DNA of 64,000 nt. Origin: Acidobacteriota bacterium. Lineage in GTDB: Bacteria; Acidobacteriota; Blastocatellia; Pyrinomonadales; Pyrinomonadaceae. The stretch spans positions 1 through 64,000 of the forward strand of contig JAOAPX010000099.1 of the NCBI GenBank assembly GCA_025463125.1. Direction: 5' to 3'. Below are positions 1,127-16,968 of the stretch, one piece after another. A model generated the notes under the pieces. That model saw only the letters and a list, made by a program, of their open reading frames with translations, did no database searches and was not told the DNA's origin. The translations under genes were made by a program, and so were the position numbers. Positions within the stretch are counted from its first letter, which is position 1. Every line of letters starts with the position of its first letter.

Positions 1127-2674
1127 TCAGGGGCGCGTTCCGGCTTTGAAAACCGTGCCGACCGAGGATTTCGAAAATTTTTCGATCACGCCGTCGCTGA
1201 ATATTCCGAAATATAAAACGCCGAGAACCGTTATTAATAATGCTGCGGTAAGCGCGGTCGGAATGCGCGGCGCGAGCCAATCGGTCGTGCGTTCGCGGAA
1301 AAACATAACGACGATCAGGCGCAGGTAATAATACGCCGAAATCGCCGTGTTGACGGCGGCGGCGATAACCATAACCGTTAAAAGCAGGTTGTTGGCTTCG
1401 AGCGCCGGTCGGAAAACCATTACTTTGCCCATAAAGCCGGCAGTCAAAGGCAATCCGAGCAGACTGAGCATAAACAGCGAAAGCGTAAATGCGAGAGCCG
1501 GAGCGCGAAAACCGATGCCGTTATAATCTTCAAAAGCGGTGCGGCGGTCGTTTTTCTGTCCGAGCAAAGTAACGATTGCGAACGCTCCCAAATTTGTTAC
1601 CGCGTACGTCAGCATATAAAAAGCGACGGCGGCAATCGCTGCGTCTCTCTGCTGCATGTTTTTCGCCATTCCGGCGCCGATAAATCCGACCATCGCGTAG
1701 CCCGCGTGAGCGATCGAAGAATACGCGAGCATTCTTTTGACGTTGTCCTGCAAAATCGCCGCGATGTTTCCGACGGTCATCGTCAAGATCGCCATTACGG
1801 AAAGCGCCGTAACCCAGGATTCGTGCAAAAATTCCGATGCCTGAACTCCGGCGATCAGCGGGAATCCGAGAACGAAAACTCTGAGAAACGATGCGAAAGC
1901 GGCTGATTTAGAACCGACCGCCATAAAAGCCGTAACCGGCGTCGGCGCGCCTTCGTAAACATCCGGCGTCCAGACGTGAAACGGAACGGTCGCCACCTTG
2001 AAGCCGAAACCGACGATCATCATCGCGCCGCCGACCAGAAGAAGAGCCGGGAAGTTCGGGTTAGCCACTTTCAGAGCGATTTCGGTGATGTTGGTCGATC
2101 CGGTCGCGCCGTAAATCAAAGCCATCCCGTAAAGCAGAAACGCAGACGCGAACGAACCTAGAATGAAATATTTCATTGCCGATTCGTTTGACTTTAAATC
2201 TCCGCGGCGAAGCCCAGCCATTACGTATGTCGCGATTGAAAGCGTTTCGAGCCCGAGAAATATAATCACCAGATCGTTTCCCGAAGCCATAAACATCATC
2301 CCGAACGTGGCGAAAAGCAGCAGCGCGTGATACTCGCCGATCGGAACGTCTTCATTGTCAGCCCAAACGCTTGAGATCAGAATGGTTACTGCCGAAACCA
2401 GCAGAAAAACGATCGTAAAACTCAGTCTCAAACCGTCGCTGGCGATCATTCCGTTCCAACCGGTTTGCGGAGCGTCATTCCACATCGATACCAGGAAGAA
2501 GGCGGAAATCGCCAGACCGATCAAAGAGATAGCGCCTGTGACGCTGCGCTGGCGCGGCACGAAGCTGTCGTAAAGCATTACGATAACGCCCGTCAGTGCG
2601 ACAATCATTTCCGGTAAAACAATCGGGAGATTGACGTTCGGATTAACTAAATTCTGCAATAAAATCGTGTTCAT
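1127..2674 (-). CDS. nuoN: NADH-quinone oxidoreductase subunit N
   Basis: A membrane subunit of respiratory complex I, one of three antiporter-like proton-pumping subunits (L, M, N). The 515-residue protein is a string of about 14 hydrophobic helices with the proton-antiporter domain in the centre. Recognisable segments are the broken-helix motif KVATVPFHVWTPDVYEGAP, where the Lys is the conserved pumping residue, and LAYSSIAHAGYAMVGFIGAG. It is the last gene of the operon, 45 bases after nuoM, and is followed by a strong hairpin. Length and order match the family norm. Confidence 0.97.
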   Translation of the reverse strand: MNTILLQNLVNPNVNLPIVLPEMIVALTGVIVMLYDSFVPRQRSVTGAISLIGLAISAFFLVSMWNDAPQTGWNGMIASDGLRLSFTIVFLLVSAVTILISSVWADNEDVPIGEYHALLLFATFGMMFMASGNDLVIIFLGLETLSIATYVMAGLRRGDLKSNESAMKYFILGSFASAFLLYGMALIYGATGSTNITEIALKVANPNFPALLLVGGAMMIVGFGFKVATVPFHVWTPDVYEGAPTPVTAFMAVGSKSAAFASFLRVFVLGFPLIAGVQASEFLHESWVTALSVMAILTMTVGNIAAILQDNVKRMLAYSSIAHAGYAMVGFIGAGMAKNMQQRDAAIAAVAFYMLTYAVTNLGAFAIVTLLGQKNDRRTAFEDYNGIGFRAPALAFTLSLFMLSLLGLPLTAGFMGKVMVFRPALEANNLLLTVMVIAAAVNTAISAYYYLRLIVVMFFRERTTDWLAPRIPTALTAALLITVLGVLYFGIFSDGVIEKFSKSSVGTVFKAGTRP

Positions 2675-2719: not shown

Positions 2720-4327
2720 TTAATGTGCCGCCGGTTTCGCGGTTTGAATTACGGCTTTCGGAACGGATTCGGCGTGTTCGATTGTTCCGCCCGCCTGTTT
2801 TGTCAGTCTCTCTTCAATCGCGACGATCGATTCGCGCGAGCGATCGAGAAACGGCGCAGGGTAAACGCCCATATAAACCATCAAAAACAAAAGCGGGGCG
2901 ATCAGACCGATTTCGCGCCAGCTCAAATCTTTCAGAGTTTTGTTTTTCGGATTCGTAACTTTGCCGAAAAACACGCGCTGAACCATCCACAAAAGATAAA
3001 CCGCCGCGAAAATCACGCCCGTTCCGGCAAACATCGTCGCGAGCCGCGGATACGAAACCGCCGTCGAGTTCCACATTCCTATCATCGTCAGAAACTCGCC
3101 GACGAAACCGTTTAAGAAAGGCAGACCGATCGAAGACATCGTCGTAAAAACGAAAATCGTCGCGTAAATCGGCATCACGCTCGCCAGACCGCCGTATTCG
3201 GTGATCGCTCGCGTGTGCCGGCGCTCGTATATAAAGCCGACGAGCAAAAAGAGCGCGCCGGTCGAAATTCCGTGGTTGAGCATTTGATAAAGCGCGCCCT
3301 GCATTCCCATTTCGGTAAACGAGAACATTCCGAGCATGACAAAACCCATATGCGCGACCGACGAATAAGCGACAAGTCGTTTAATGTCCGGCTGAACCAT
3401 CGCGACGAGCGCGCCGTAAATAATGCCGATGATCGAGAGAATGATGAAAATCCACGCCAGCTCGCGCGAAGCCTCGGGAAAAAGCGTAAAGTTAAAACGC
3501 ATTAACCCGTAAGTTCCCATTTTCAAAAGCACAGCCGCCAGAATAACCGAGCCTGCGGTCGGCGCTTCGGTGTGCGCGTCCGGCAGCCATGTGTGAAACG
3601 GGAAAAGCGGGACTTTAATCGAAAAGGCGAGCGCAAAAGCGAGAAACAAAAGCAATCCGGTTTGATGCGAAAAGACCATCGTTCCGGTTTTCAGCGAATT
3701 GAGAAGCGTTACGAAATCGAATGTTCCCGTTCCGGTCTGATCGGCGTGAATATAATACAAGCCGATGATCGCGACGAGCATCAGCAAACTGCCGAGCGCC
3801 GTGTAAATAAAAAACTTGACCGCCGCGTAGATTCGATTTTCGCCGCCCCAGATTCCGATCAAAAAGAACATCGGAACGAGCGAAGCTTCAAAGAAAAGAT
3901 AAAAAACTAAAAGGTCGAGCGAGCAGAAAACGCCGATCATCGCGCTTTCTAAAAGAAGCAGAAAAACGTAAAAAGCATTCGAGCGCTTTTCGACCGCGTG
4001 CCACGTCGAGAGAACGGCAATCGGCATTATAAAAGTCGTCAAAACGACCAGCCACAGCGAAAGCCCGTCAACGCCGATATGATAATTCGTATTGATCGCC
4101 TGTATCCACGGCACGTTTTTCTCAAAGAAAAACCCGTTTGCCGAAGCCGCGCTTTTATCTAAAATCAGGAAAAGCGACAGCAAAAAGTTTACAGCCGTCC
4201 AAAAAAGCGTTACCCATTTCAGGTGACTTTCCTGCTTCCAGAACATCTGGTGTCCGATGATGGAAACTGCACCGATGACGGGAAGCAAAATTAAAATCGT
4301 TAAAAGATTCTCTGCTATAAAATCCAT
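2720..4327 (-). CDS. nuoM: NADH-quinone oxidoreductase subunit M
   Basis: The antiporter-like membrane subunit M of complex I, 535 residues and about 14 transmembrane helices. The conserved Glu of helix 5 is in YLFFEASLVPMFFLIG, and the pumping Lys and discontinuous helix are in FSIKVPLFPFHTWLPDAH. The C-terminus ends in a short Ala/Lys-rich cytoplasmic tail. It lies between nuoL and nuoN in the expected order. The 83-base gap from nuoL contains an inverted repeat and 7-base repeat units rather than a clear terminator. Confidence 0.97.
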   Translation of the reverse strand: MDFIAENLLTILILLPVIGAVSIIGHQMFWKQESHLKWVTLFWTAVNFLLSLFLILDKSAASANGFFFEKNVPWIQAINTNYHIGVDGLSLWLVVLTTFIMPIAVLSTWHAVEKRSNAFYVFLLLLESAMIGVFCSLDLLVFYLFFEASLVPMFFLIGIWGGENRIYAAVKFFIYTALGSLLMLVAIIGLYYIHADQTGTGTFDFVTLLNSLKTGTMVFSHQTGLLLFLAFALAFSIKVPLFPFHTWLPDAHTEAPTAGSVILAAVLLKMGTYGLMRFNFTLFPEASRELAWIFIILSIIGIIYGALVAMVQPDIKRLVAYSSVAHMGFVMLGMFSFTEMGMQGALYQMLNHGISTGALFLLVGFIYERRHTRAITEYGGLASVMPIYATIFVFTTMSSIGLPFLNGFVGEFLTMIGMWNSTAVSYPRLATMFAGTGVIFAAVYLLWMVQRVFFGKVTNPKNKTLKDLSWREIGLIAPLLFLMVYMGVYPAPFLDRSRESIVAIEERLTKQAGGTIEHAESVPKAVIQTAKPAAH

Positions 4328-4409: not shown

Positions 4410-6731
4410 TTATCCAATCAACCTAAATCCGTAATAAATAAAATATCCGATGACGATCAGCGCGCCGAAAAGAATGAACGCGGCGTAGCTTCGAACGAAT
4501 CCGACCTGAATTCCGCGCGCGACGCCGCCGAGCGCGGCGACAAAATGACCGACGCCGTTTACGATACCGTCAATAACGCCGATGTCGATGCCTTTCCAAA
4601 GCGCGTTGCGCGATAAATTGGTAATCGGATCGACGATATAGCCGTTATAAAGTTCATCGACGCGCCATTTTTCCGCGAGAATCTTCGGCATTCTCTTAAG
4701 CGGGCTTTTTTGAAAAATCATCCATCCCGTGCCGATGCCGAGGGCTGCTAATAAAACCGATAGCCCCGCGAGAAGACGTTCGTTGCGGACTTCTTCGGGT
4801 GAATGTGCGTCGTGCGCCGCTTCGGTCGCTGCGGCGGAAGCAGCGTGCCCGGCACCCGCCGCATTTGTGGCGGCAGGCGCGTGTTCGCCTGTCGCTGCCG
4901 TTGAATGACCGGCTTCTTTGTGTGAAACTTTCGCAATGATCGGCTCAAGCGTGTGTTCGAAAACATTCGCGTCCTTGATGCCGACGAGCGAGCTCAAAGC
5001 ATACGGAACGCCCATCAAGCCGCCGAATGTCGAAAGAATAGCAAGAACGATCAGCGGAACGGTCATCACCCAGGGCGATTCGTGCGGCTTGAAATCGTGT
5101 GCAAGCGCGTGGTGATGTTCGTCTTCGTCATCGTGCTCGTCGTGCGCCGCGCCGTGCCCGTCATCATAATGATGCGCAGCGGCGTGCGCGTCTCCGTGCG
5201 GTTCGACCGCGTCCGAAGCGTCGCCGAAAGCGTATGCGTTTTCTTCTGCGCGTGCTGCATCGTGCGGATGCTCGGCGACCGGCAATTCCTCATGAAATCT
5301 TTCTTCGCCCCAGAAGGTCATAACCATCATTCTGGTCATATAAACGGCGGTCAAAACGGCTGTTACAAGCCCGACAATCCACAAAACGTAATTCCACGGC
5401 TCGGGAATATTCGGCGAAGCGAATGTTTTATAAAGAATTTCGTCTTTCGAGAAAAATCCCGCGAAAATGGGAATTCCCGAAATCGCCAGCCAGCCCGTCA
5501 GCATCGTCGCAAACGTGATCGGCATATATTTTTTCAAATTGCCCATTCTGCGCATATCCTGTTCGTGGTGCATTCCGTGAATGACCGAACCGGAACCGAG
5601 GAATAAAAGAGCTTTGAAAAAGGCGTGCGTCATAACGTGGAAAATCGCCGCCGTGAAAGCGCCGACGCCGCACGCCAGAAACATATAACCCAATTGCGAA
5701 ACGGTCGAATAAGCGAGAACCTTTTTGATGTCGTTTTGCGCCAGACCGATTGTGGCGGCGAAAATCGCCGTCGCCGCGCCGATGATCGCGACGATAAACA
5801 TCGCCGTCGGCGCGTTTTGAAAAATCGCGTTCGAACGAACCACCAAGTAAACGCCCGCCGTAACCATCGTCGCCGCGTGAATCAAAGCGGAAACCGGAGT
5901 CGGACCAGCCATCGCGTCCGGAAGCCACGTGAAAAGCGGAATCTGCGCTGATTTACCGGTCGCGCCGACAAATAAAAGAACGGCGATCGAAGTCAGTCCG
6001 CCCGCGAAAATCGCTGCCCCGGCGAACGATTCGGGCGCCATTACGTTTTGCGAAACCCACGTGAAAACGCTCTGAACCTGCGCCCCGTCGACGGTTTTGT
6101 CGAAAAAGGAAATCGAGCCCGTCATCGAGTACATCAGGAAAATCGCCATCAAAACGCCCCAGTCGCCGATGCGGTTCATGACGAAAGCTTTTTTCGCCGC
6201 TTTTCTCGCTTCGTCGCGCTTGATGTAGTAACCGATGAGCAAATATGAGCAAAGACCGACGCCTTCCCATCCGACGAACATCAGCAGATAGTTATCCGCG
6301 AGAATGAGCGTCAGCATCGAGAACATAAACAGGTTTAAGTAAGCGAAAAAGCGATAGAAGCCTTTATCGCCGTGCATATAACCGGTGGCGAAAACGTGTA
6401 TCAAAAGTCCGACGAACGTGATGAAACAGACGTAAATTCCCGAAAGCCTGTCCATTCCCAAGCCGAAATCGGCGCGGAAGCTTCCAACCTGAATCCACGT
6501 CCAAATATGGTCGAGAACCGGTTTGCCTTCGGGCGCGGACAAAGCGCCGATATGAGGCGTTCCGATGCCGAAAGCGATCATAAACGCGACCACGCACGAA
6601 ACGCCGACAGCCGCACAAGCCACAACGCCGCTGAACAATTCATTTTTCAGTCGTCCGCCGATCAGCCAGTTGATTACAGCACCGACGAGCGGCGCGAAAA
6701 TTATTAGACTTAAAAGATTGTTTTCAGTCAT
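4410..6731 (-). CDS. nuoL: NADH-quinone oxidoreductase subunit L with two His-rich insertions
   Basis: The largest antiporter-like subunit, carrying the lateral helix of complex I. The core motifs are intact: Glu156 in GWEGVGLCSYLL, and Lys260 and the broken helix in GKSAQIPLFTWLPDAMAGP. At 773 residues it is about 160 longer than E. coli NuoL (613). The excess lies in two inserts. Residues 478-550 are rich in His, Asp and Glu, with about 15 His. Residues 600-645 are Ala/His-rich. Both separate hydrophobic segments and should be exposed loops. The ATG overlaps the TAA of the upstream GNAT gene by one base, suggesting translational coupling. Confidence 0.97.
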   Translation of the reverse strand: MTENNLLSLIIFAPLVGAVINWLIGGRLKNELFSGVVACAAVGVSCVVAFMIAFGIGTPHIGALSAPEGKPVLDHIWTWIQVGSFRADFGLGMDRLSGIYVCFITFVGLLIHVFATGYMHGDKGFYRFFAYLNLFMFSMLTLILADNYLLMFVGWEGVGLCSYLLIGYYIKRDEARKAAKKAFVMNRIGDWGVLMAIFLMYSMTGSISFFDKTVDGAQVQSVFTWVSQNVMAPESFAGAAIFAGGLTSIAVLLFVGATGKSAQIPLFTWLPDAMAGPTPVSALIHAATMVTAGVYLVVRSNAIFQNAPTAMFIVAIIGAATAIFAATIGLAQNDIKKVLAYSTVSQLGYMFLACGVGAFTAAIFHVMTHAFFKALLFLGSGSVIHGMHHEQDMRRMGNLKKYMPITFATMLTGWLAISGIPIFAGFFSKDEILYKTFASPNIPEPWNYVLWIVGLVTAVLTAVYMTRMMVMTFWGEERFHEELPVAEHPHDAARAEENAYAFGDASDAVEPHGDAHAAAHHYDDGHGAAHDEHDDEDEHHHALAHDFKPHESPWVMTVPLIVLAILSTFGGLMGVPYALSSLVGIKDANVFEHTLEPIIAKVSHKEAGHSTAATGEHAPAATNAAGAGHAASAAATEAAHDAHSPEEVRNERLLAGLSVLLAALGIGTGWMIFQKSPLKRMPKILAEKWRVDELYNGYIVDPITNLSRNALWKGIDIGVIDGIVNGVGHFVAALGGVARGIQVGFVRSYAAFILFGALIVIGYFIYYGFRLIG

Positions 6732-7216
6732 TATTTTTCTATATCGGTCAAACCCAACATCATTTCCAGCATCGTAGTTTCAAAACCCGCGCGCTCAAAT
6801 AATCGGCGCGCGTTTTCGTTTTGAACGGCAACGCTTAATATCAATTTCGACGCTCCAAATTCCTTTGCCGCTTCGCTTGCGGCGGCGAGCAAACTCTTTC
6901 CGGCGTTGCAGCCGCGAGCCGCTTCGTCAACGTACAAATCATGTATCCGAGCGGCTGATTCTAATAAGTCTGCGTAGTTTTTCAGTTCAAACCCGACAAA
7001 CGCGAATCCGACGACTTTTCCGTCCAATTCCGCAACCAATACAGCCGAATCTTCCGCGCTCGTTTGTCTTTCGTAAAACGCCGCTGCCTGCGCCTGACTG
7101 CCGAGCGGCGAGAAACGCCGCTCATCGTAATCCAGATGCTGCTGCGCAAGCCGCCGCGCGAAAACGGCAATCGTTTGCGCGTCTGCGGCGGTGGCTCGAC
7201 GAATGACGAGAGCCAT
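6731..7216 (-). CDS. GNAT-family N-acetyltransferase inside the nuo operon
   Basis: A 161-residue acetyltransferase-like protein. The N-terminus (IRRATAADAQTIAVFARRLA) is the typical GNAT strand 1/helix 1. The acetyl-CoA pyrophosphate loop appears as LYVDEAARGCNAGKSLL, where the usual RGxGxG has Asn in place of the middle Gly. The C-terminal strand NENARRLFERAGFE is also characteristic. It sits between nuoK (9 bases downstream of its start) and nuoL (TAATG overlap), with an AAGGA Shine-Dalgarno 6 bases before ATG 7216. The substrate is unknown; context permits a respiratory-complex target, but that is inference. Confidence 0.85.
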   Translation of the reverse strand: MALVIRRATAADAQTIAVFARRLAQQHLDYDERRFSPLGSQAQAAAFYERQTSAEDSAVLVAELDGKVVGFAFVGFELKNYADLLESAARIHDLYVDEAARGCNAGKSLLAAASEAAKEFGASKLILSVAVQNENARRLFERAGFETTMLEMMLGLTDIEK

Positions 7217-7225
7217 ATAAAATCC

Positions 7226-7531
7226 TTAATTTTTCAAAATGCTCGCGTCGTCAACGTCAACCGAAACGCGGTTGCGGAAAAACGAGATGATAATTCCGAG
7301 TCCGACGGCAGCTTCAGCCGCCGCGACGCTCATTACCATAAACACGAAAAGCTGCCCGGTGACGTCGGCGTAATAACGCGAAAAGGCGACGAACGTTAAG
7401 TTTACGGCGTTGAGCATAAGCTCGATGCACATAAACATTCCGATGGCGTTGCGCTTAAAGATCACGCCGACCGCGCCGATGGTGAATAAAATTCCTGAAA
7501 GTGCCAGATAGCTTGCTAAACTCGGTTCCAT
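7226..7531 (-). CDS. nuoK: NADH-quinone oxidoreductase subunit K
   Basis: A small 101-residue membrane subunit with three helices. The two conserved buried Glu residues of the proton path are visible in [12 protein letters not shown] and [12 protein letters not shown]. Length is standard. It follows nuoJ after about 100 bases and precedes the inserted GNAT gene instead of directly abutting nuoL. Confidence 0.96.
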
Positions 7532-7631: not shown

Positions 7632-8216
7632 TTAAAGCGCGATCCGGTAATCGTCTTTATCTTCGCCTTCGTGTCGTCTTTCAAGCTCGCGCTCGACCAT
7701 AGATTCCATTTGCGGCTGGCTTAATTTTCGCACGAGAATAACGCCGCCGATTATCGCCATCAAAAGCAGGATTCCGACGATTTCGACCGGCAAAAGATAT
7801 TCCGTGTACATCGCCGTGCCGATGCTCATAGTTTTTCCGATTGTTTCTTCGGTGTTGACCGCTTGTTTCGGCGCGCGCATTACCGCGTAGAAAACGAAAA
7901 ACGTCTGCACAAGTAGTATCAAGCCGAGCCCGCCGCCGATCGCATACAAATAACGCAGGCGGTTAAGCGGTTTGTCTTCTTCCATATTGAGCAGCATGAT
8001 AACGAAGACCACCAAAACCATGATCGCGCCCGCGTAAATCAGGATTTGCACGGCGGCAATAAACGGCGCGGCAAGCGTCACGTATAAAACCGAAAGGGAA
8101 ACGAAAACGCCGATCAGTGAAATCGCGCTGTAAAGCGGGTTTTTGTGGTAAACCATCGAAATCGCGCAAGCGATAGCGAGTCCGGCGAAAACGAAAAATA
8201 ATGCGGTTGTAGCCAT
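7632..8216 (-). CDS. nuoJ: NADH-quinone oxidoreductase subunit J
   Basis: A membrane subunit of 194 residues with five predicted helices. The conserved helix with the pi-bulge region reads QILIYAGAIMVLVVFVIMLL, which identifies the family. The C-terminal tail is charged and cytoplasmic. The gene directly follows nuoH, although nuoI normally lies between the two; the 87-base gap leaves no room for it. Confidence 0.96.
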   Translation of the reverse strand: MATTALFFVFAGLAIACAISMVYHKNPLYSAISLIGVFVSLSVLYVTLAAPFIAAVQILIYAGAIMVLVVFVIMLLNMEEDKPLNRLRYLYAIGGGLGLILLVQTFFVFYAVMRAPKQAVNTEETIGKTMSIGTAMYTEYLLPVEIVGILLLMAIIGGVILVRKLSQPQMESMVERELERRHEGEDKDDYRIAL

Positions 8217-8303
8217 AGAAAAGTTTTCGGATGTTCCGATGCCAGATAATTAGTAAAAGGCTCGACGCCGGTTTTGGCGCTGAGCTTTCTGACATCTCTT
8301 AAC
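8217..8303 (-). other. nuoH-nuoJ spacer with a small hairpin; nuoI expected here but absent
   Basis: Arms 8260-8269 and 8276-8285 pair in 8 of 10 positions. The spacer encodes nothing I can recognise. In the canonical order nuoH-nuoI-nuoJ, the roughly 150-180 residue ferredoxin-like NuoI would be here. No 4Fe-4S double CxxCxxCxxxCP frame exists in the gap on either strand. Confidence 0.6.
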
Positions 8304-9392
8304 TTACCTGTTCAAAAAGAAAACGATAATGATCGTCAAAATTACATTTGCCAACGCGAGCGGCAGAAGAAACTTCCAGCCGAAATTCATCAACTGGTCG
8401 AAACGAAAGCGCGGCAGCGTTCCGCGAATCCAAATATACAAAAATAAGAACGCGCAAATTTTACCGATAAAAGCGACGTGGCTGACGAGCGCGTAGGGAA
8501 CCGAGCCGGGCTCAAGTAAATGTCCGAGCCCCGGAACGTACCAGCCGCCGAGGAACAATACCGTCACCATCACGGAAACCGTAAACATGTTGACGTATTC
8601 CGCCATAAAAAACAGCGCGAATTTGAGCGCCGAATATTCGGTATGGAAACCGGCGACGAGCTCCGTTTCAGCTTCCGGCAAGTCGAACGGAACGCGGTTC
8701 GTTTCGGCAAATGCCGAGATCAGAAACACGATGAAACCGATAAACTGCGGAATGATAAACCATTTGAACGGCGAATTTATCTGCGCGTTGATGATCCCGT
8801 TTAAATCGAGCGTTCCGGCGAGCATAACGACGCCGATAACCGACGCGCCCATCGCTAATTCGTAAGAAATCATCTGCGCCGACGAGCGAAGCCCGCCCAT
8901 CAAGCTGTATTTATTGTTTGAAGACCAACCGGCGAGCGCGATGCCGTAAACACCGACCGACGTGATTCCGAGCACGAACAAAACACCTACGTCGATCTGC
9001 GCGATCGTCATCGGAAGCTGGCGAATATTATCGCCCAAGCCGTAGGGCAGAAAGCTCCAGTCGATCGTCGTAATCACGGGACCGAACGGGTAAACCACGA
9101 TCGGCAGCAGCGCGCACGTCAAAGCGACGATCGGCGCGAGAAAATAAACGAATTTCGTTGATTTGTCGGGAACCAGGTCTTCTTTGAAGATAAATTTCAG
9201 AAGGTCGGCGAACGGCTGCAAAACGCCCCAGGGTCCGACGCGATTCGGTCCGATACGACCCTGAATCCAGCCCAAAACCTTGCGTTCAGCCAGAACGGTG
9301 TACGCGACAATCATCAAAACGCCCTGAAATGCGAGCAGAATTGCTATCGAGAAAACAATAAAAGGAAAAGCAGTTTTAATTACGGATTCCAT
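8304..9392 (-). CDS. nuoH: NADH-quinone oxidoreductase subunit H
   Basis: The membrane subunit at the quinone-binding junction, 362 residues from ATG 9392. A longer frame from TTG 9422 adds ten residues that do not look like the family. Conserved signatures include [19 protein letters not shown] near the N-terminus, the charged loop [20 protein letters not shown], and [16 protein letters not shown] near the C-terminus. About eight transmembrane helices. Upstream, the gap to nuoG holds a strong hairpin (9489-9526), so expression may depend on read-through or a second start site. Confidence 0.96.
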
Positions 9393-9488
9393 AAATGTAA
9401 AAGCAGATTCGCTGCTGCACAAAGCGAAAACGCCGCAAAAATATTAATTTTGCAAACTTAAAAGTTTAATAAATTACGGCGGTAAAGC

Positions 9489-9537: not shown

Positions 9538-11844
9538 TTATTTTAGAACCACTTTGCTCGCGACGGTTTCTTTATCGTCAATTCGATCTTTGACGTTGAC
9601 CGAAGCGGCTTCCGCCATTTCGACCAGTCGCGGCGTTCCGTCGAGATTAAACTGAACGAGCGGCGAAACCAGAAGATTTTCCGGCTTCGGATTGCCGGCT
9701 GCAAGCAAATGAAACTGATCGGTTTTTCCGGTCATCGTCGTTACGCGGTGCAGTTTATGCCCGACGCGCGGCGTTTCCGTGATTTTCTCGCTCGTTTCCG
9801 GCAATGCTTCGACTTTGCGGCGCAGCGCGGCGAATTCGTTTGATAAATCACGTTTGGCGACCGGAGAATATTTAGCCTGGACCGGTTTTGATTCGTCTTT
9901 GAGCAGCGGGTAACGAAGTCCTTCGTAAGCCGGAACGCTGTCGGCGATGGCTTTGAAAACCATCGTTGACGAAAAATTGTAACCGAAATCGGCGCCCAAT
10001 TCGCGGGCGATCATCGAAGCGATAACCCAATCGGGTTTTGATTGATGAATCGGTTCGATCGCTTTACGAACGCGCTGAACGAATCCGGCGTTGTTCGTAA
10101 ATGTGCCGTCAACTTCGGCGAAACTAGCCGCGGGCAAAACCACGTCGGCGTATTCGGTCGTCGCGGTTTCAAACAATTCCTGTACGACGACGAAATCTTT
10201 ATTCGCCAGGAGATCGGTTTTATCTTCGGGCAGGCTTCCGGCGATAAGCAGCGCTTTTGAAGTTCTCAAAACTTCTTCAAGCGGCTTTTTGCCCGCCATC
10301 ATATCGTTTGCGCCGACCGAGTTGTTGTAAAGCGGCAGCGGATGAAGCAGGGCGCGCCGTGTATCCGAAGCGAAACTGCCCGCGACGTTCGCTAAAACCG
10401 CCTGCGCTTCGGCAGACAAATCGCCGCCGAACATAATAATAAAATCGCCTTCGGTTTCGCCGATTGTTTTCAGCAAATCGTCGATCTCCGTTTGAGCCGC
10501 GCCAAGCTTTTTAGTGATTGTCGCGTCGGATTGATCGGCAAAAGCCAGTGCGAAAGCGTCGAGCGAGCCTTTATTAACGTGTATAAACTGGCTTGCCTGC
10601 GCCGCGAGGCGGATTGGCGTGTCGTGAACGACAATGAATTTCGCTCCGCCGTTGCGAACCGCCTGGCGAATTTGTTTGGCTGTAAATGTCTGTTCTTCTT
10701 CGGGCTCGCCGCCGATAAGGAGAATCGTTTTCGCGTGGCGAATTTCTTTATGCGTGCACAGCGGCGCGCTTAAATTGTCGAAAAACGGAGCCAGATCGTA
10801 AGCGTCGGAAACCGCGTAATTGTTCGAATTAACCGCTTCGGTCGCAAAACGCTTGAGCGTGAAAATCGATTCGTTCGTCAGACGCGAAGACGCGACAACG
10901 CCGACGTTGTTTCCGCTTTCTTTTAATTTACTGCCGACAAAATGAATCGCCTCGTCCCACGTCGAGGGGATAAGCTTTCCGCCTTTTTTATAACGAATTA
11001 AAGGGGTTTTAATGCGGTCTTTCGAATTGATGAAACCGTGAGCGAAACGAGCTTTTACGTCGAGAAACTCGCCGTTCAAGCCGTTGACGTAGCGATCACG
11101 CGCAACGATTCGATGAACTTCGCCGCCGCGCGAGCCGATGCTCAATTGCATCCCGTCCGACGAATAAACGTCGGTCGTGCGCGTTTGATCCATTTCCCAG
11201 GGGCGCGTTTCGTGGCGATAAACGCCGTCGAGAAGCGTTCCGGTCGGGCAAACTTCGATACAGTTTCCGCACTGCGAGCAGCCGAGCCATCCGCCGTAAG
11301 TTCCGATCACCGTGTTAACCCCGCGATTTCCGGCTTCGATGGCTTCTTCGCCCATCCATTCGTCGCAAACTCTCGTGCAGCGTTTGCATAAAATGCAGCG
11401 CTGCGGATCGTTGGCGACAATCGGCGAAAGAAATTTTTCCGGCTGAGCGTTTTTGCGCTCGACGAAACGCTCTTCCAAATCGCCCCAGTCCATCACCATT
11501 TCCTGCAATTCGCATTCGCCGCCGCGGTCGCAAACCGGGCAATCAAGCGGGTGATTGGCGAGCAGAAACTCACTCATCGCACGCTGCGCTTTTTCGATTT
11601 CTTCGCTTTGCGTGGTGACGATCATTCCGTCGGTGCAGGTGATTGTGCAGGAAGTTTGCAGCTTCGGCATCTTTTCGATGCGAACCAGGCACATACGGCA
11701 TGAAGCCTGCAATGCCAGGTCTCCGTAATAACAAAAAGACGGGATTCCGAAGCCTTTTTCGCGGCAAACTTCAATCAGCTTCGCCCCTTTTTCGACTTCA
11801 AATTCCTGCTCGTTAATTGTAACTTTAATAAGTTCTGTTGACAT
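9538..11844 (-). CDS. nuoG: NADH-quinone oxidoreductase subunit G
   Basis: The large Fe-S subunit of the complex I NADH-dehydrogenase arm, 768 residues from ATG 11844 (the longer frame uses TTG 11850). Visible clusters: a [2Fe-2S] ferredoxin domain (C38, C49, C52, C66), the HisCys3 cluster (H98, C102, C105, C111), and two [4Fe-4S] sets (C150, C153, C156, C160 and C189, C192, C195, C199). A molybdopterin-oxidoreductase-like domain follows from about residue 230. It is preceded by the small bTHX gene rather than directly by nuoF. The full cluster set suggests a functional electron chain up to the missing NuoI. Confidence 0.96.
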   Translation of the reverse strand: MSTELIKVTINEQEFEVEKGAKLIEVCREKGFGIPSFCYYGDLALQASCRMCLVRIEKMPKLQTSCTITCTDGMIVTTQSEEIEKAQRAMSEFLLANHPLDCPVCDRGGECELQEMVMDWGDLEERFVERKNAQPEKFLSPIVANDPQRCILCKRCTRVCDEWMGEEAIEAGNRGVNTVIGTYGGWLGCSQCGNCIEVCPTGTLLDGVYRHETRPWEMDQTRTTDVYSSDGMQLSIGSRGGEVHRIVARDRYVNGLNGEFLDVKARFAHGFINSKDRIKTPLIRYKKGGKLIPSTWDEAIHFVGSKLKESGNNVGVVASSRLTNESIFTLKRFATEAVNSNNYAVSDAYDLAPFFDNLSAPLCTHKEIRHAKTILLIGGEPEEEQTFTAKQIRQAVRNGGAKFIVVHDTPIRLAAQASQFIHVNKGSLDAFALAFADQSDATITKKLGAAQTEIDDLLKTIGETEGDFIIMFGGDLSAEAQAVLANVAGSFASDTRRALLHPLPLYNNSVGANDMMAGKKPLEEVLRTSKALLIAGSLPEDKTDLLANKDFVVVQELFETATTEYADVVLPAASFAEVDGTFTNNAGFVQRVRKAIEPIHQSKPDWVIASMIARELGADFGYNFSSTMVFKAIADSVPAYEGLRYPLLKDESKPVQAKYSPVAKRDLSNEFAALRRKVEALPETSEKITETPRVGHKLHRVTTMTGKTDQFHLLAAGNPKPENLLVSPLVQFNLDGTPRLVEMAEAASVNVKDRIDDKETVASKVVLK

Positions 11845-11869
11845 TTTCAACTATATGTAAATCCGTAAA

Positions 11870-12021: not shown

Positions 12022-13332
12022 TTAAACGTTGGCTGTATAACCATTATCGTTCGTTTTGTTCAAAAGCCATTTTTTGAAATCCTCGGGAAAGCGTTTAACC
12101 GCGCTTTGGATCGGCCACGCTGCCGCATCGCCAAGCGGGCAAAACGACTTTCCTTCAATATTGTCGCAAATATCTAGCAGCAACTGCGCGTCTTCGGGAC
12201 GCCCTTCGCCAATTGAAATGCGATTGAAAATCTTCACCAGCCAATCGGTTCCTTCACGGCACGGCGTACACCAGCCGCAAGATTCGTGTTTGTAGAATTC
12301 GGTTAAATTTTTTGTGGATTCCACCACATCGACCGTTTCGTCCATCACGATAAATCCGCCTGAGCCGACCATCGAACCGGCTTCGACTAAACCTTCATAA
12401 TCAAGCGTAACATTTTTGCCGATAATTTGTTCGGCGTTCATGATATAAACCGACGAACCGCCTGGAATAACCGCCTTTAATTTTTTATCCGGTCTCCGCA
12501 TTCCGCCGCAGTCCTCCATGATAAACTTTTCCATATCGGCGTAACCCATCGGAAGTTCGTAAACGCCGGGTTTTTTGACGTGACCGGAAACCGACCAGAG
12601 CTTTGTGCCGCCCGATTTTTCCGTTCCGAGTTTTTTCCATGCTTCGCCGCCCATTTCGATGATTTGCGGAACGCTTGTCAAAGTTTCGACGTTGTTAACG
12701 ACCGTCGGGCTTGCGTATAAACCTTCAATTGCCGGAAAAGGCGGTTTCATGCGCGGATGTCCGCGATAACCCTCGAGGCTCGACAAAAGCGCGGTTTCTT
12801 CGCCGCAAATGTAAGCTCCGGCGCCTGTGTGCGTGTAAACTTCGCACGAAAAATCAGAACCTAAAATGTTTTTGCCGACGAGATTTGCCGCGCGGGCTTC
12901 TTCGATGGCTTTGTCCATTATATCGATCAAATAGCGGTATTCGCCGCGATAATAGATGTAGCAAGCCTGCGAGCCAAGAGCGAAAGCCGCGATCAGCATT
13001 CCTTCAATCAGTGAATGCGGATCGAGTTCGAGCAGATAACGGTCTTTGAAAGTTCCGGGTTCCGATTCGTCGGCGTTACAGACAATATATTTCTGTTTCG
13101 GCGATTGGCGCGGAACGAAACTCCATTTCATTCCGGTCGGAAAACCCGCGCCGCCGCGACCGCGCAGCGCAGACGCTTTGACTTCATTAATAATATCGTC
13201 CTGCGTCATGTTCATCGCTTTTTTCAGCGATTCGTATCCGCCGGTTTCCTGATAAACCTTGAGCGTGTGCGAGTCTTTCATGCCGACGCGCTTAAGCTGT
13301 AAAGGTTCACATCCGATTGCTTTGATTTCCAT
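12022..13332 (-). CDS. nuoF: NADH-quinone oxidoreductase subunit F
   Basis: The NADH- and FMN-binding subunit, 436 residues. The glycine-rich nucleotide-binding segment [17 protein letters not shown] is at 57-72, followed by the FMN-contact [13 protein letters not shown]. The C-terminal [4Fe-4S] ligands are C352, C355, C358 ([11 protein letters not shown]) and C398. Standard length. It follows nuoE by about 30 bases and precedes the bTHX gene. Confidence 0.97.
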
Positions 13333-13361: not shown

Positions 13362-13892
13362 TTACTTTAACGAATCTAAAATTTTATCTACTTTTTCGAC
13401 GGTCAAATCTTCGTAATAATCGAATCCGTTTTGCATCATCGGCGCTGTTCCGCAGCTTCCAAGGCATTCAACTAACGAAACCGTAAATTTTCCGTCGGCG
13501 GTCGTTTCGCCCGGATGTATGCCCAATCTGTTGCAAACGTGCTCGGTAATTTCCGGTTCGCCCATGATTTTGCACGAAAGCGTTTTGCAAATCTGCAAAT
13601 GATGCCGACCGACCGGGCGCAAATTGAACATCGAATAAAACGTCGCCGTTTCCCAAACGTCCGTTACTTCAAGGTCAAGAAAATCCGCTAAAAAATTCAC
13701 GCCCGGATTGTCTATATAACCGCGCTCGCGCTGAATGACGAAAAGCAGCGGAATCAGCGCTGAACGCTTTCTTTCCTCCGGATATTTCGTTAAATGCGAA
13801 CGCATTTCTTCGATAACTTCCGGCGAAAACGTCGCCGTTTCTTCGGTAAAAACAACCTGGTTTGTAAAATCAGTTGGAACTGCTGTTGCCAT
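13362..13892 (-). CDS. nuoE: NADH-quinone oxidoreductase subunit E
   Basis: A thioredoxin-like [2Fe-2S] subunit with cluster ligands C102, C107, C143 and C147 (CKTLSC and CLGSC). I chose ATG 13892, giving 176 residues beginning MATAVPTDF. A longer frame from 13955 only adds a Phe-rich translation of the adjacent A/T-rich repeat, which is not plausible protein. It forms the NADH-dehydrogenase module together with F and G. Confidence 0.95.
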   Translation of the reverse strand: MATAVPTDFTNQVVFTEETATFSPEVIEEMRSHLTKYPEERKRSALIPLLFVIQRERGYIDNPGVNFLADFLDLEVTDVWETATFYSMFNLRPVGRHHLQICKTLSCKIMGEPEITEHVCNRLGIHPGETTADGKFTVSLVECLGSCGTAPMMQNGFDYYEDLTVEKVDKILDSLK

Positions 13893-13898
13893 ATATAA

Positions 13899-13961
13899 AA
13901 ATGGAAAATGAAAAATAAAAAGTGGAAAGTGGAAAATCAAAAACAAACTTTCCATTTTCCG
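13899..13961. repeat. 7-base phased A-rich array upstream of nuoE
   Basis: From 13899 seven successive 7-base units can be read, including AAATGGA, AAATGAA and two copies of AAGTGGA. They are followed by a partly complementary CTTTCCATTTTCC at 13948-13960, so the element can fold. It occupies almost the whole gap between nuoD and nuoE. Confidence 0.65.
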
Positions 13962-13976
13962 TTCGATACCTTTCGC

Positions 13977-15197
13977 TTATCTATCGATTTCTCCCAAAAC
14001 AATATCAAGCGAGCCGATAATTGCCACGACGTCGGCGATCATTTCGCCTTCGCTCATCACGGGTAAAGCCTGCAAATTAATAAAGCTCGGTCCGCGAACG
14101 TGAACGCGGCTCGGTTTCGGCGTCCCGTCGGATTTCATATAAACGCCGAGCTCGCCTTTCGAGCCTTCGATGGCGTGATAAACTTCGCCTTCGGGAATCG
14201 AAAAGCCTTCGGCGACGATCAAAAAGTGATGAATCAGCGAATCCATGTGTTTTCGCATATCGTCGCGATCGGGCAGAACGACTTTCGGCGCGTCGGCTTT
14301 GATCGGTCCGGGCTTTAAGCGGGCAAGCGCCTGACGAATGATTTTATGTGACTCGTAAAGTTCGCGCATACGAACGCGATAACGCGCCCAGACGTCGCCG
14401 TCCGTTTCGACCGGAACGTCAAAATCATAAGTTTCGTAACCCGAATACGGATTGTCGCGGCGCAAATCCAGATCGACGTTGCTTGCGCGCAGGCACGGAC
14501 CGGTCAATCCCCAGTCAATCGCTTCTTCCCTGGAAATAACTCCGACGCCCTGCGTGCGGCTTTGCCAGATCGTGTTTCCGGTAGCAAGCGTTTCGAATGT
14601 GTCCAGGGCTTCCGGGAAACCTTCGATAAACTGTTGACACCGACGTTCAAAGCCTGCGGGCAAATCCATCATCAAGCCGCCGATGCGAAAATAGCTCGGC
14701 GTCATTCGTCCGCCCGAAGCGGCTTCAATCAAATTTAGAATTTTTTCGCGCTGACGGAAACAGAAAAAGAAAACGCTCATCGCGCCAAGGTCGAGCGCGC
14801 TCGTTCCGAGCCAAACCATATGCGATGCGATTCTCTGCAATTCGCAAAAAAGCACGCGGATGGTTTGCGCCCGTTCCGGAATTTCCAGATCAAGCAATTT
14901 CTCAGCCGCCATTACATAAGCCAGATTGTTTCCGAGCGGATTAAGATAATCCATCCGGTCTGTGATGACGATGCCTTGCTGATATTTTTTGTATTCAAAA
15001 AGCTTTTCCATTCCCGTGTGCAAATAGCCGATATCGGGAATGGCTTTGACGACGAGTTCGCCGTCGAGTTTTAGCTCAAGACGCAAAACGCCGTGCGTCG
15101 AAGGATGCTGCGGACCCATCGAAAGCGTCATTTGCGACTCGAGCGACTGATCGAGATCGTCGAATTGACCGGGAATATTTTCTACTGCAACGCTCAT
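13977..15197 (-). CDS. nuoD: NADH-quinone oxidoreductase subunit D
   Basis: The 49-kDa-type subunit forming the quinone site with NuoB, 406 residues. The N-terminal signature MGPQHPSTHGVLRLELKLDG carries the His residues that line the quinone cavity; the conserved GYLHTGMEKLFE, LDLGAMSVFFF and C-terminal SLDIVLGEIDR are all present. It is a separate gene from nuoC, not a CD fusion as in E. coli. Confidence 0.97.
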   Translation of the reverse strand: MSVAVENIPGQFDDLDQSLESQMTLSMGPQHPSTHGVLRLELKLDGELVVKAIPDIGYLHTGMEKLFEYKKYQQGIVITDRMDYLNPLGNNLAYVMAAEKLLDLEIPERAQTIRVLFCELQRIASHMVWLGTSALDLGAMSVFFFCFRQREKILNLIEAASGGRMTPSYFRIGGLMMDLPAGFERRCQQFIEGFPEALDTFETLATGNTIWQSRTQGVGVISREEAIDWGLTGPCLRASNVDLDLRRDNPYSGYETYDFDVPVETDGDVWARYRVRMRELYESHKIIRQALARLKPGPIKADAPKVVLPDRDDMRKHMDSLIHHFLIVAEGFSIPEGEVYHAIEGSKGELGVYMKSDGTPKPSRVHVRGPSFINLQALPVMSEGEMIADVVAIIGSLDIVLGEIDR

Positions 15198-15279: not shown

Positions 15280-15765
15280 TTATGACAAACTGTACGGCTC
15301 GTATCCGCGTAACGGGAAATCCTTTCTTAATGCGTGCCCGTCAAAATCCGACGGCAATAGAATTCGGCGCAAATCCGGATGTCCATCGAAAATTACTCCG
15401 AACATATCGTAAGTTTCGCGCTCGTGCCAATCGGCGGTTTTCCAAACTCCGGTTACCGTTTCGACATTCGGTTCGTCTTCGCTCAAAAGCACCTTTAGGC
15501 GCAAGCGATTAAAATGTTTGGTCGAAAATAAATGATAATTGATTTCAAAACGCGGATCTTCTTCCGGTCCGCGATCAGCGCCGCACAAATCGGCAAGCAT
15601 ATCAAAACCGTGTTCGAGTTTCAAAACGCGGCAGACTTCTGTGATCGAACCGCGCGGAACTATAATGGTAACTTCACCGCGCGCATCCTTGAAATCGCTT
15701 ACCCAATCGGCATTCGCCGCTTTTAATTTTTCTACGTAACCGAGCAAAACTGTTGTATCAGCCAT
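15280..15765 (-). CDS. nuoC: NADH-quinone oxidoreductase subunit C
   Basis: The 30-kDa-type hydrophilic subunit, 161 residues. The family signature near the C-terminus is clear: WHERETYDMFGVIFDGHPDL followed by RRILLPSDFDGHALRKDFPL. It packs against NuoD in the peripheral arm. Shorter than many homologues but complete at both ends. Confidence 0.96.
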   Translation of the reverse strand: MADTTVLLGYVEKLKAANADWVSDFKDARGEVTIIVPRGSITEVCRVLKLEHGFDMLADLCGADRGPEEDPRFEINYHLFSTKHFNRLRLKVLLSEDEPNVETVTGVWKTADWHERETYDMFGVIFDGHPDLRRILLPSDFDGHALRKDFPLRGYEPYSLS

Positions 15766-15815: not shown

Positions 15816-16463
15816 TTACGATGATTTGCGTCTTTCGTGACGTGACGGAATCGTATAAGGTCGCGAAATTTGATTTTGAGCCACAAGCTCTTTAGTTTCC
15901 TGTTCGAGCGATGTCCCTTCGCTGACAGGTAATGTGCCGGGAACAATCGAATGACGCGATTCTTCTTCAAATGTATCGCGGCGGTCTTTGACCGATTCGC
16001 TCATGATTTTTTCCTGCAGCATCATGATGGCGTGAACCAGCATTTCCGGTCGCGGCGGGCAGCCCGGAACGTACACGTCAACCGGAACGATTTTATCGAC
16101 GCCCTGAACGATCGCATAATTGTCGAAAACGCCGCCCGACGTTGCGCATGCGCCCATCGAAATAACCCATTTAGGTTCCGGCATCTGATCGTAAATGCGT
16201 CGTAAGACCGGAGCCATTTTTCTCGAAACGCGTCCGGAAACAATCATTACATCAGCCTGTCTAGGGCTGGCGCGAAACGTTTCAGCGCCGAAACGAGAAA
16301 GATCATGACGCGAACTTACTGTATTCATCATTTCAATCGCGCAGCAGGCAAGACCGAACGTAGCCGGCCACAATGATGATTTTCTTGCCCAGTTAACGAC
16401 CGCGTCGAGCTTAACGGTGATAACGTCGGGTAATGATTCAAAAAGTGTATTCTCTAATCCCAT
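15816..16463 (-). CDS. nuoB: NADH-quinone oxidoreductase subunit B
   Basis: A 215-residue subunit holding the terminal [4Fe-4S] cluster N2, which reduces quinone. Ligands C40 and C41 (the unusual adjacent pair in [10 protein letters not shown]), C106 and C135 (PGCPPRPE) are present. The C-terminal 55 residues are a polar extension beyond the conserved domain. It sits 16 bases after nuoA. Confidence 0.97.
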
Positions 16464-16479
16464 TTTTCAACTCCAAATT

Positions 16480-16968
16480 CTAAGCAACACGCTGCGTTTC
16501 TCTGATGCGTCGGTTTTTTTCTTTCACCATTTCTTTGGCTTCGGCGCGGGCTTCGGCGCGAGCCTGTAATCCCCATTCAAATGTGCCTTTTCTCCAAACG
16601 TAGATATAACCGACTACGAGCGTGCTGATAAAGATCATTATTTCCACAAAAGCTATCGTGCCGAAGGCGATTGTGCTTATTTTTTCCTGCGCAAGTAATT
16701 CCTTAAAAGCCACGGCGAAAGGAATCATAAACAATACTTCTATATCGAAAAGCAGAAAAATTACGGCAACCGTGTAAAATTTTATCGAAAATCTATCGCG
16801 TGCCGAACCGACCGGATCTTTTCCCGATTCATACGGCATCAACTTGGTTGCTGTGCGTTTCCGCGGTCCGATTAATTGCGTTACCAAAATTTGGCTCGCC
16901 GCAAATCCGATTGCTACCAGAAACATCACGCCTATCGGCGCATAATCCAATAAACTAAATTCAGACAT
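16480..16968 (-). CDS. nuoA: NADH-quinone oxidoreductase subunit A
   Basis: A membrane subunit, first gene of the operon. Three helices and the conserved PYESGKDPVGSARDRFSIKFY loop region can be seen. At 162 residues it is longer than usual, with a charged C-terminal coil rich in Arg, Glu and Ala (about residues 128-162). A GAGG lies 14 bases before ATG 16968. A strong promoter candidate is found about 100 bases upstream. Confidence 0.95.
   Translation of the reverse strand: MSEFSLLDYAPIGVMFLVAIGFAASQILVTQLIGPRKRTATKLMPYESGKDPVGSARDRFSIKFYTVAVIFLLFDIEVLFMIPFAVAFKELLAQEKISTIAFGTIAFVEIMIFISTLVVGYIYVWRKGTFEWGLQARAEARAEAKEMVKEKNRRIRETQRVA

Follow-up and report, generated by a model that had tools for sequence, protein, structure and literature searches.

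An old displacement of nuoI from the main complex I operon in the class Blastocatellia

The operon studied here is the main NADH-type operon for a 14-subunit complex I of a Pyrinomonadaceae bacterium, from which nuoI is displaced. The gene is missing from its usual place because an intact copy sits elsewhere in the genome. Since the displacement is common to the whole class Blastocatellia, it is an old inherited rearrangement and not a missing or replaced part of the complex. The new part is this class-wide extent; the relocation itself is mechanistically ordinary, and so is the function of the protein.

Results

The nuo operon and the gap between nuoH and nuoJ

The window, that is the whole analysed stretch of 64,000 nucleotides, encodes thirteen nuo genes, nuoA to nuoH and nuoJ to nuoN. 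All of them are located on its minus strand. Their order is canonical, just as the preliminary description of this DNA had stated. The features are given below, together with nuoI, which lies outside the window.

1127-2674, minus strand: nuoN, open reading frame, orthologue in the same position in relatives
2720-4327, minus strand: nuoM, open reading frame, orthologue in the same position in relatives
4410-6731, minus strand: nuoL, open reading frame, orthologue in the same position in relatives
6731-7216, minus strand: GNAT acetyltransferase gene between nuoK and nuoL (PF00583, 65.8 bits)
7226-7531, minus strand: nuoK, open reading frame, orthologue in the same position in relatives
7632-8216, minus strand: nuoJ (PF00499, 133 bits)
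8217-8303, minus strand: nuoH-nuoJ spacer, the canonical nuoI site, 87 bases with a hairpin and without a NuoI remnant
8304-9422, minus strand: nuoH (PF00146, 409 bits), start probably the ATG at 9392
9538-11850, minus strand: nuoG, with its own Fe-S domains and a molybdopterin-type domain (Pfam)
12022-13332, minus strand: nuoF, open reading frame, orthologue in the same position in relatives
13362-13955, minus strand: nuoE, open reading frame, orthologue in the same position in relatives
13977-15197, minus strand: nuoD, open reading frame, orthologue in the same position in relatives
15280-15765, minus strand: nuoC, open reading frame, orthologue in the same position in relatives
15816-16463, minus strand: nuoB, open reading frame, orthologue in the same position in relatives
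16480-16968, minus strand: nuoA, open reading frame
contig C155, 1922-2443 (L001, 1450-1971), plus strand: nuoI, 173 aa, TIGR01971 match

The GNAT gene, which interrupts the nuoK-nuoL order, had been overlooked before. Other nuo junctions of relatives, e.g. nuoL-nuoM in L215, nuoK-nuoL in L216 and nuoF-nuoG in L214, likewise have extra space or inserts, and insertions into this operon are thus tolerated.

The nuoH stop and the nuoJ start are indeed only 87 bases apart, and no remnant of NuoI could be found in any of the six frames of this gap. The canonical position of nuoI between these two genes is therefore not occupied, and the same junction is seen in relatives. The small hairpin that had been noticed in the gap is also borne out, with a folding energy of -26.6 kcal/mol against -15.5 kcal/mol in shuffled sequences (z -3.6). 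The genome has only one copy of it, and the nuoH-nuoJ spacers of relatives, which range from 3 to about 190 bases within the class, are unrelated to that of the window. We thus rejected the idea that the hairpin is a conserved or a dispersed element.

The displaced nuoI gene and its product

From the gap it had been proposed that nuoI has either moved elsewhere or been replaced by another ferredoxin, and that a NuoI profile search of the complete genome could tell which. This search, with the TIGR01971 profile and its curated family cut-off of 113.05 bits, gave exactly one match above the cut-off (134.8 bits, contig C155), a distant and intact copy that supports relocation. Both CxxCxxCxxxCP motifs, for the clusters N6a and N6b, are present in this protein as well as in every displaced NuoI we examined. 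Its top matches among solved structures are Thermus Nqo9, mycobacterial NuoI and mitochondrial TYKY; the closest of them is Nqo9 (E 1.2e-37), with which eight of eight cysteines align. Because a single true NuoI is identified by its score against the family, by its cysteine motifs and by the solved structures closest to it, the first half of the proposal stands and replacement is not needed.

All of nuoA to nuoN are thus encoded in the genome, thirteen genes in the window and nuoI on C155. The G+C content of this contig (0.46) is somewhat below the 0.48-0.50 of the window, and its gene order agrees with that of relatives. Only one nuoH and one NuoI were found in the window genome, and no second complex I; the genome is a metagenome-assembled one of 201 contigs and 94% completeness, such that a further NuoI could sit in the missing piece.

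The same junction in relatives

Within the family Pyrinomonadaceae, 55 of 60 genomes have a NuoI above the cut-off, and by eye comparison of the listed coordinates it never adjoins the main nuoH. In the only case where both are on the same contig (G041) they are about 78 kb apart. All main operons of the family that could be fully read show the order H-J-K. The pattern of nuoH followed by nuoJ without nuoI is present in the isolate Pyrinomonas methylaliphatogenes K22 and in assemblies of only 2 to 8 contigs (G067, G039), in which NuoI lies far from the main operon. It extends to the Blastocatellia families f3 and f35-f39, where the main operons read have nuoH and then nuoJ, with the orthologous NuoI elsewhere; in two f3 genomes of two contigs each (G141, G149), no other nuo gene was seen near the main nuoH in the stretch read.

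Two cases deserve separate mention. Family f2 (L192, L199) also has H-J-K-L-M-N without nuoI; its NADH-side genes B-C-D-E-F-G are clustered apart from these, and the last gene of that cluster is a divergent nuoI-like one. One Pyrinomonadaceae genome harbours, besides the usual displaced NuoI, an additional H-I-J-K cluster (L068, G075:C28), whose NuoI groups with Thermus Nqo9; this cluster is either a horizontal gain or a contamination.

Many relatives possess a second operon with the order C-D-H-I-J-K-L-M-N, apparently without E, F and G. Its NuoIs form a separate clade (100/95 in the maximum-likelihood tree), and their genes are mostly placed between H and J. The second operon of f3 and f39, too, is without nuoI: in four genomes (L193, L197, L209, L211) the second nuoI is found in tandem, before the first displaced one, and in others (L218, L219) it stands alone, off its operon.

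Age and descent of the displacement

The displaced NuoIs of Blastocatellia fall into a single clade of the maximum-likelihood tree (support 95/96), and the branches of this clade match the families. Closest to it is the displaced NuoI of f10, a family that does not belong to the class (94/93, the deeper order being unsure). Displaced NuoIs are also known from f6, f8, f24, f26 and f32, and nuoI is kept between H and J in f5, f12, f20, f23, f30, f31 and others. By parsimony, about four changes between the operonic and the displaced state are required on this tree. Within the phylum, nuoI was therefore displaced repeatedly or went back into the operon.

NuoI distances correlate with those of the main-operon NuoH (r 0.79 over 37 genomes, 0.69 within Blastocatellia), and none of 2000 permutations gave a correlation as high. 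This would be expected if both proteins descend together; the correlation shows shared descent and bears only indirectly on whether NuoI sits in the assembled complex, being no proof of contact. A single clade of displaced NuoIs in the class, with distances parallel to those of NuoH, indicates that nuoI was probably displaced before the class arose. No description of a displaced nuoI in Acidobacteria, nor of its class-wide extent, turned up in the searchable literature.

Discussion

A vertically inherited subunit that probably acts in trans

In the window genome a match to the promoter consensus (11 of 12 positions) has its end 25 bases upstream of the ATG of nuoI; by chance, 1.2 such matches would be expected in the stretch searched. 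Such a near-consensus promoter suggests that nuoI is probably expressed separately, apart from the nuo operon, and that its product is assembled into complex I in trans. There the displaced NuoI would link NuoG and NuoB through N6a and N6b, as NuoI does in every complex I. By its title, a study from 2022 listed among the references of PMC12361115 reportedly found the order of the nuo genes to be dispensable for the assembly of E. coli complex I. In several relatives a DUF4190 gene lies close upstream of nuoI on the same strand.

We are highly confident of the explanation as a whole, namely that an intact nuoI was displaced, probably before Blastocatellia diversified, was inherited vertically and would now be transcribed separately and act in trans. 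Directly observed are the gap, the single intact gene elsewhere, the pattern across the class, the common ancestry of the displaced NuoIs and their divergence in parallel with NuoH; separate transcription, assembly in trans and the neutrality of the displacement are inferred.

Is the displacement neutral?

The displacement is most likely a neutral rearrangement, tolerated since NuoI can be provided from another locus. In the alternative, nuoI repeatedly leaves the complex I operons of Acidobacteriota under selection, either for an expression level of its own or for a second electron partner (such as KorAB in one family). We regard this as improbable, and as slightly more so that the displacement seen here is functional in one of these two ways. 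KorAB is a 2-oxoacid:ferredoxin oxidoreductase, and in four genomes of f37 (L196, L200, L202, L207) nuoI follows korA-korB in the same orientation, with only 19-35 bases between korB and nuoI in two of these loci (L196 and L200). A functional reading would also suit the position of nuoI downstream of sucD and ndk in Pyrinomonadaceae, the NuoI of the second complex in f3 and f39, which is off its operon too, and the clusters of free NuoI, for which potentials below those in the complex have been reported (Yano et al. 1999, cited after PMC3578206). However, there is no match to KorB in the window genome or in several relatives, and in the families other than f37, wherever KorB occurs, its gene is not adjacent to nuoI. 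We therefore rejected KorAB as a general partner of NuoI, adjacent as it is only in f37. Moreover, the solo nuoI has no neighbour that is common to the class, all shared neighbourhoods being confined to single families. Because of this, and of the missing KorB match in the window genome, we treat the displacement as most likely neutral.

In one f37 genome a gene for an Mrp/NUBPL-type Fe-S carrier (L210, 869-1960, minus strand) lies divergent from the displaced nuoI. NUBPL helps in the Fe-S assembly of mitochondrial complex I.

A replacement of NuoI by another ferredoxin is very unlikely in this complex I. It would account for the absence of nuoI from the operon, and other Fe-S proteins do give weak matches in the genome, but these three remaining NuoI-profile matches reach only 21-23 bits within larger proteins, one of which is NuoG itself, and a bona fide NuoI is present that belongs to the class-wide orthologous clade. 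Least credible of all is an artefact, either a nuoI lost in assembly at 8.2-8.3 kb, which had been named as the case that would overturn the absence, or a contig C155 binned from another organism: although the genome is a fragmented one, the nuoI-less junction recurs in many independent genomes of the family, including the isolate and near-closed assemblies, which excludes an assembly error, and the displaced NuoI has similar neighbours in those genomes (NDK, DUF4190, NuoI, M78 peptidase), so that for the pattern this reading is already refuted.

Meaning for annotation and operon evolution

With the displaced nuoI, what looked like a gap in a core respiratory operon is accounted for. It also calls for caution with annotation based on linkage: one pipeline clusters nuo hits within 250 bp (PMC12361115), and this would put the displaced nuoI of the class into a separate cluster. 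A displacement that is class-wide, and in some families accompanied by a paralogue, is a natural case for studying what keeps the genes of an obligate complex together.

Comparison with known systems

Compared with the canonical 14-gene nuo/nqo operon, e.g. that of Thermus Nqo, the window genome likewise encodes all fourteen subunits, with A-H and J-N in canonical order, and its NuoI is closest to Thermus Nqo9 among solved structures; it differs in that its nuoI is located elsewhere and that nuoK and nuoL are separated by a GNAT gene. As a member of the NuoI/Nqo9/TYKY family (TIGR01971) the protein is normal in score, in its two CxxCxxCxxxCP motifs and in its length of 173 aa, and only the location of its gene is different. 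With the second acidobacterial operon, which is without E, F and G and of the complex-I-like type sensu PMC12361115, the window operon shares homologous core subunits, and both have a NuoI homologue. Unlike that operon it includes E, F and G, and the window genome has no such second operon. Split or scattered nuo operons occur in other bacteria, for instance in Rickettsiales and Aquifex. There, as here, the subunit genes of one complex are found at more than one place, whereas in the present case a single gene is off an otherwise intact cluster, and this consistently across a class.
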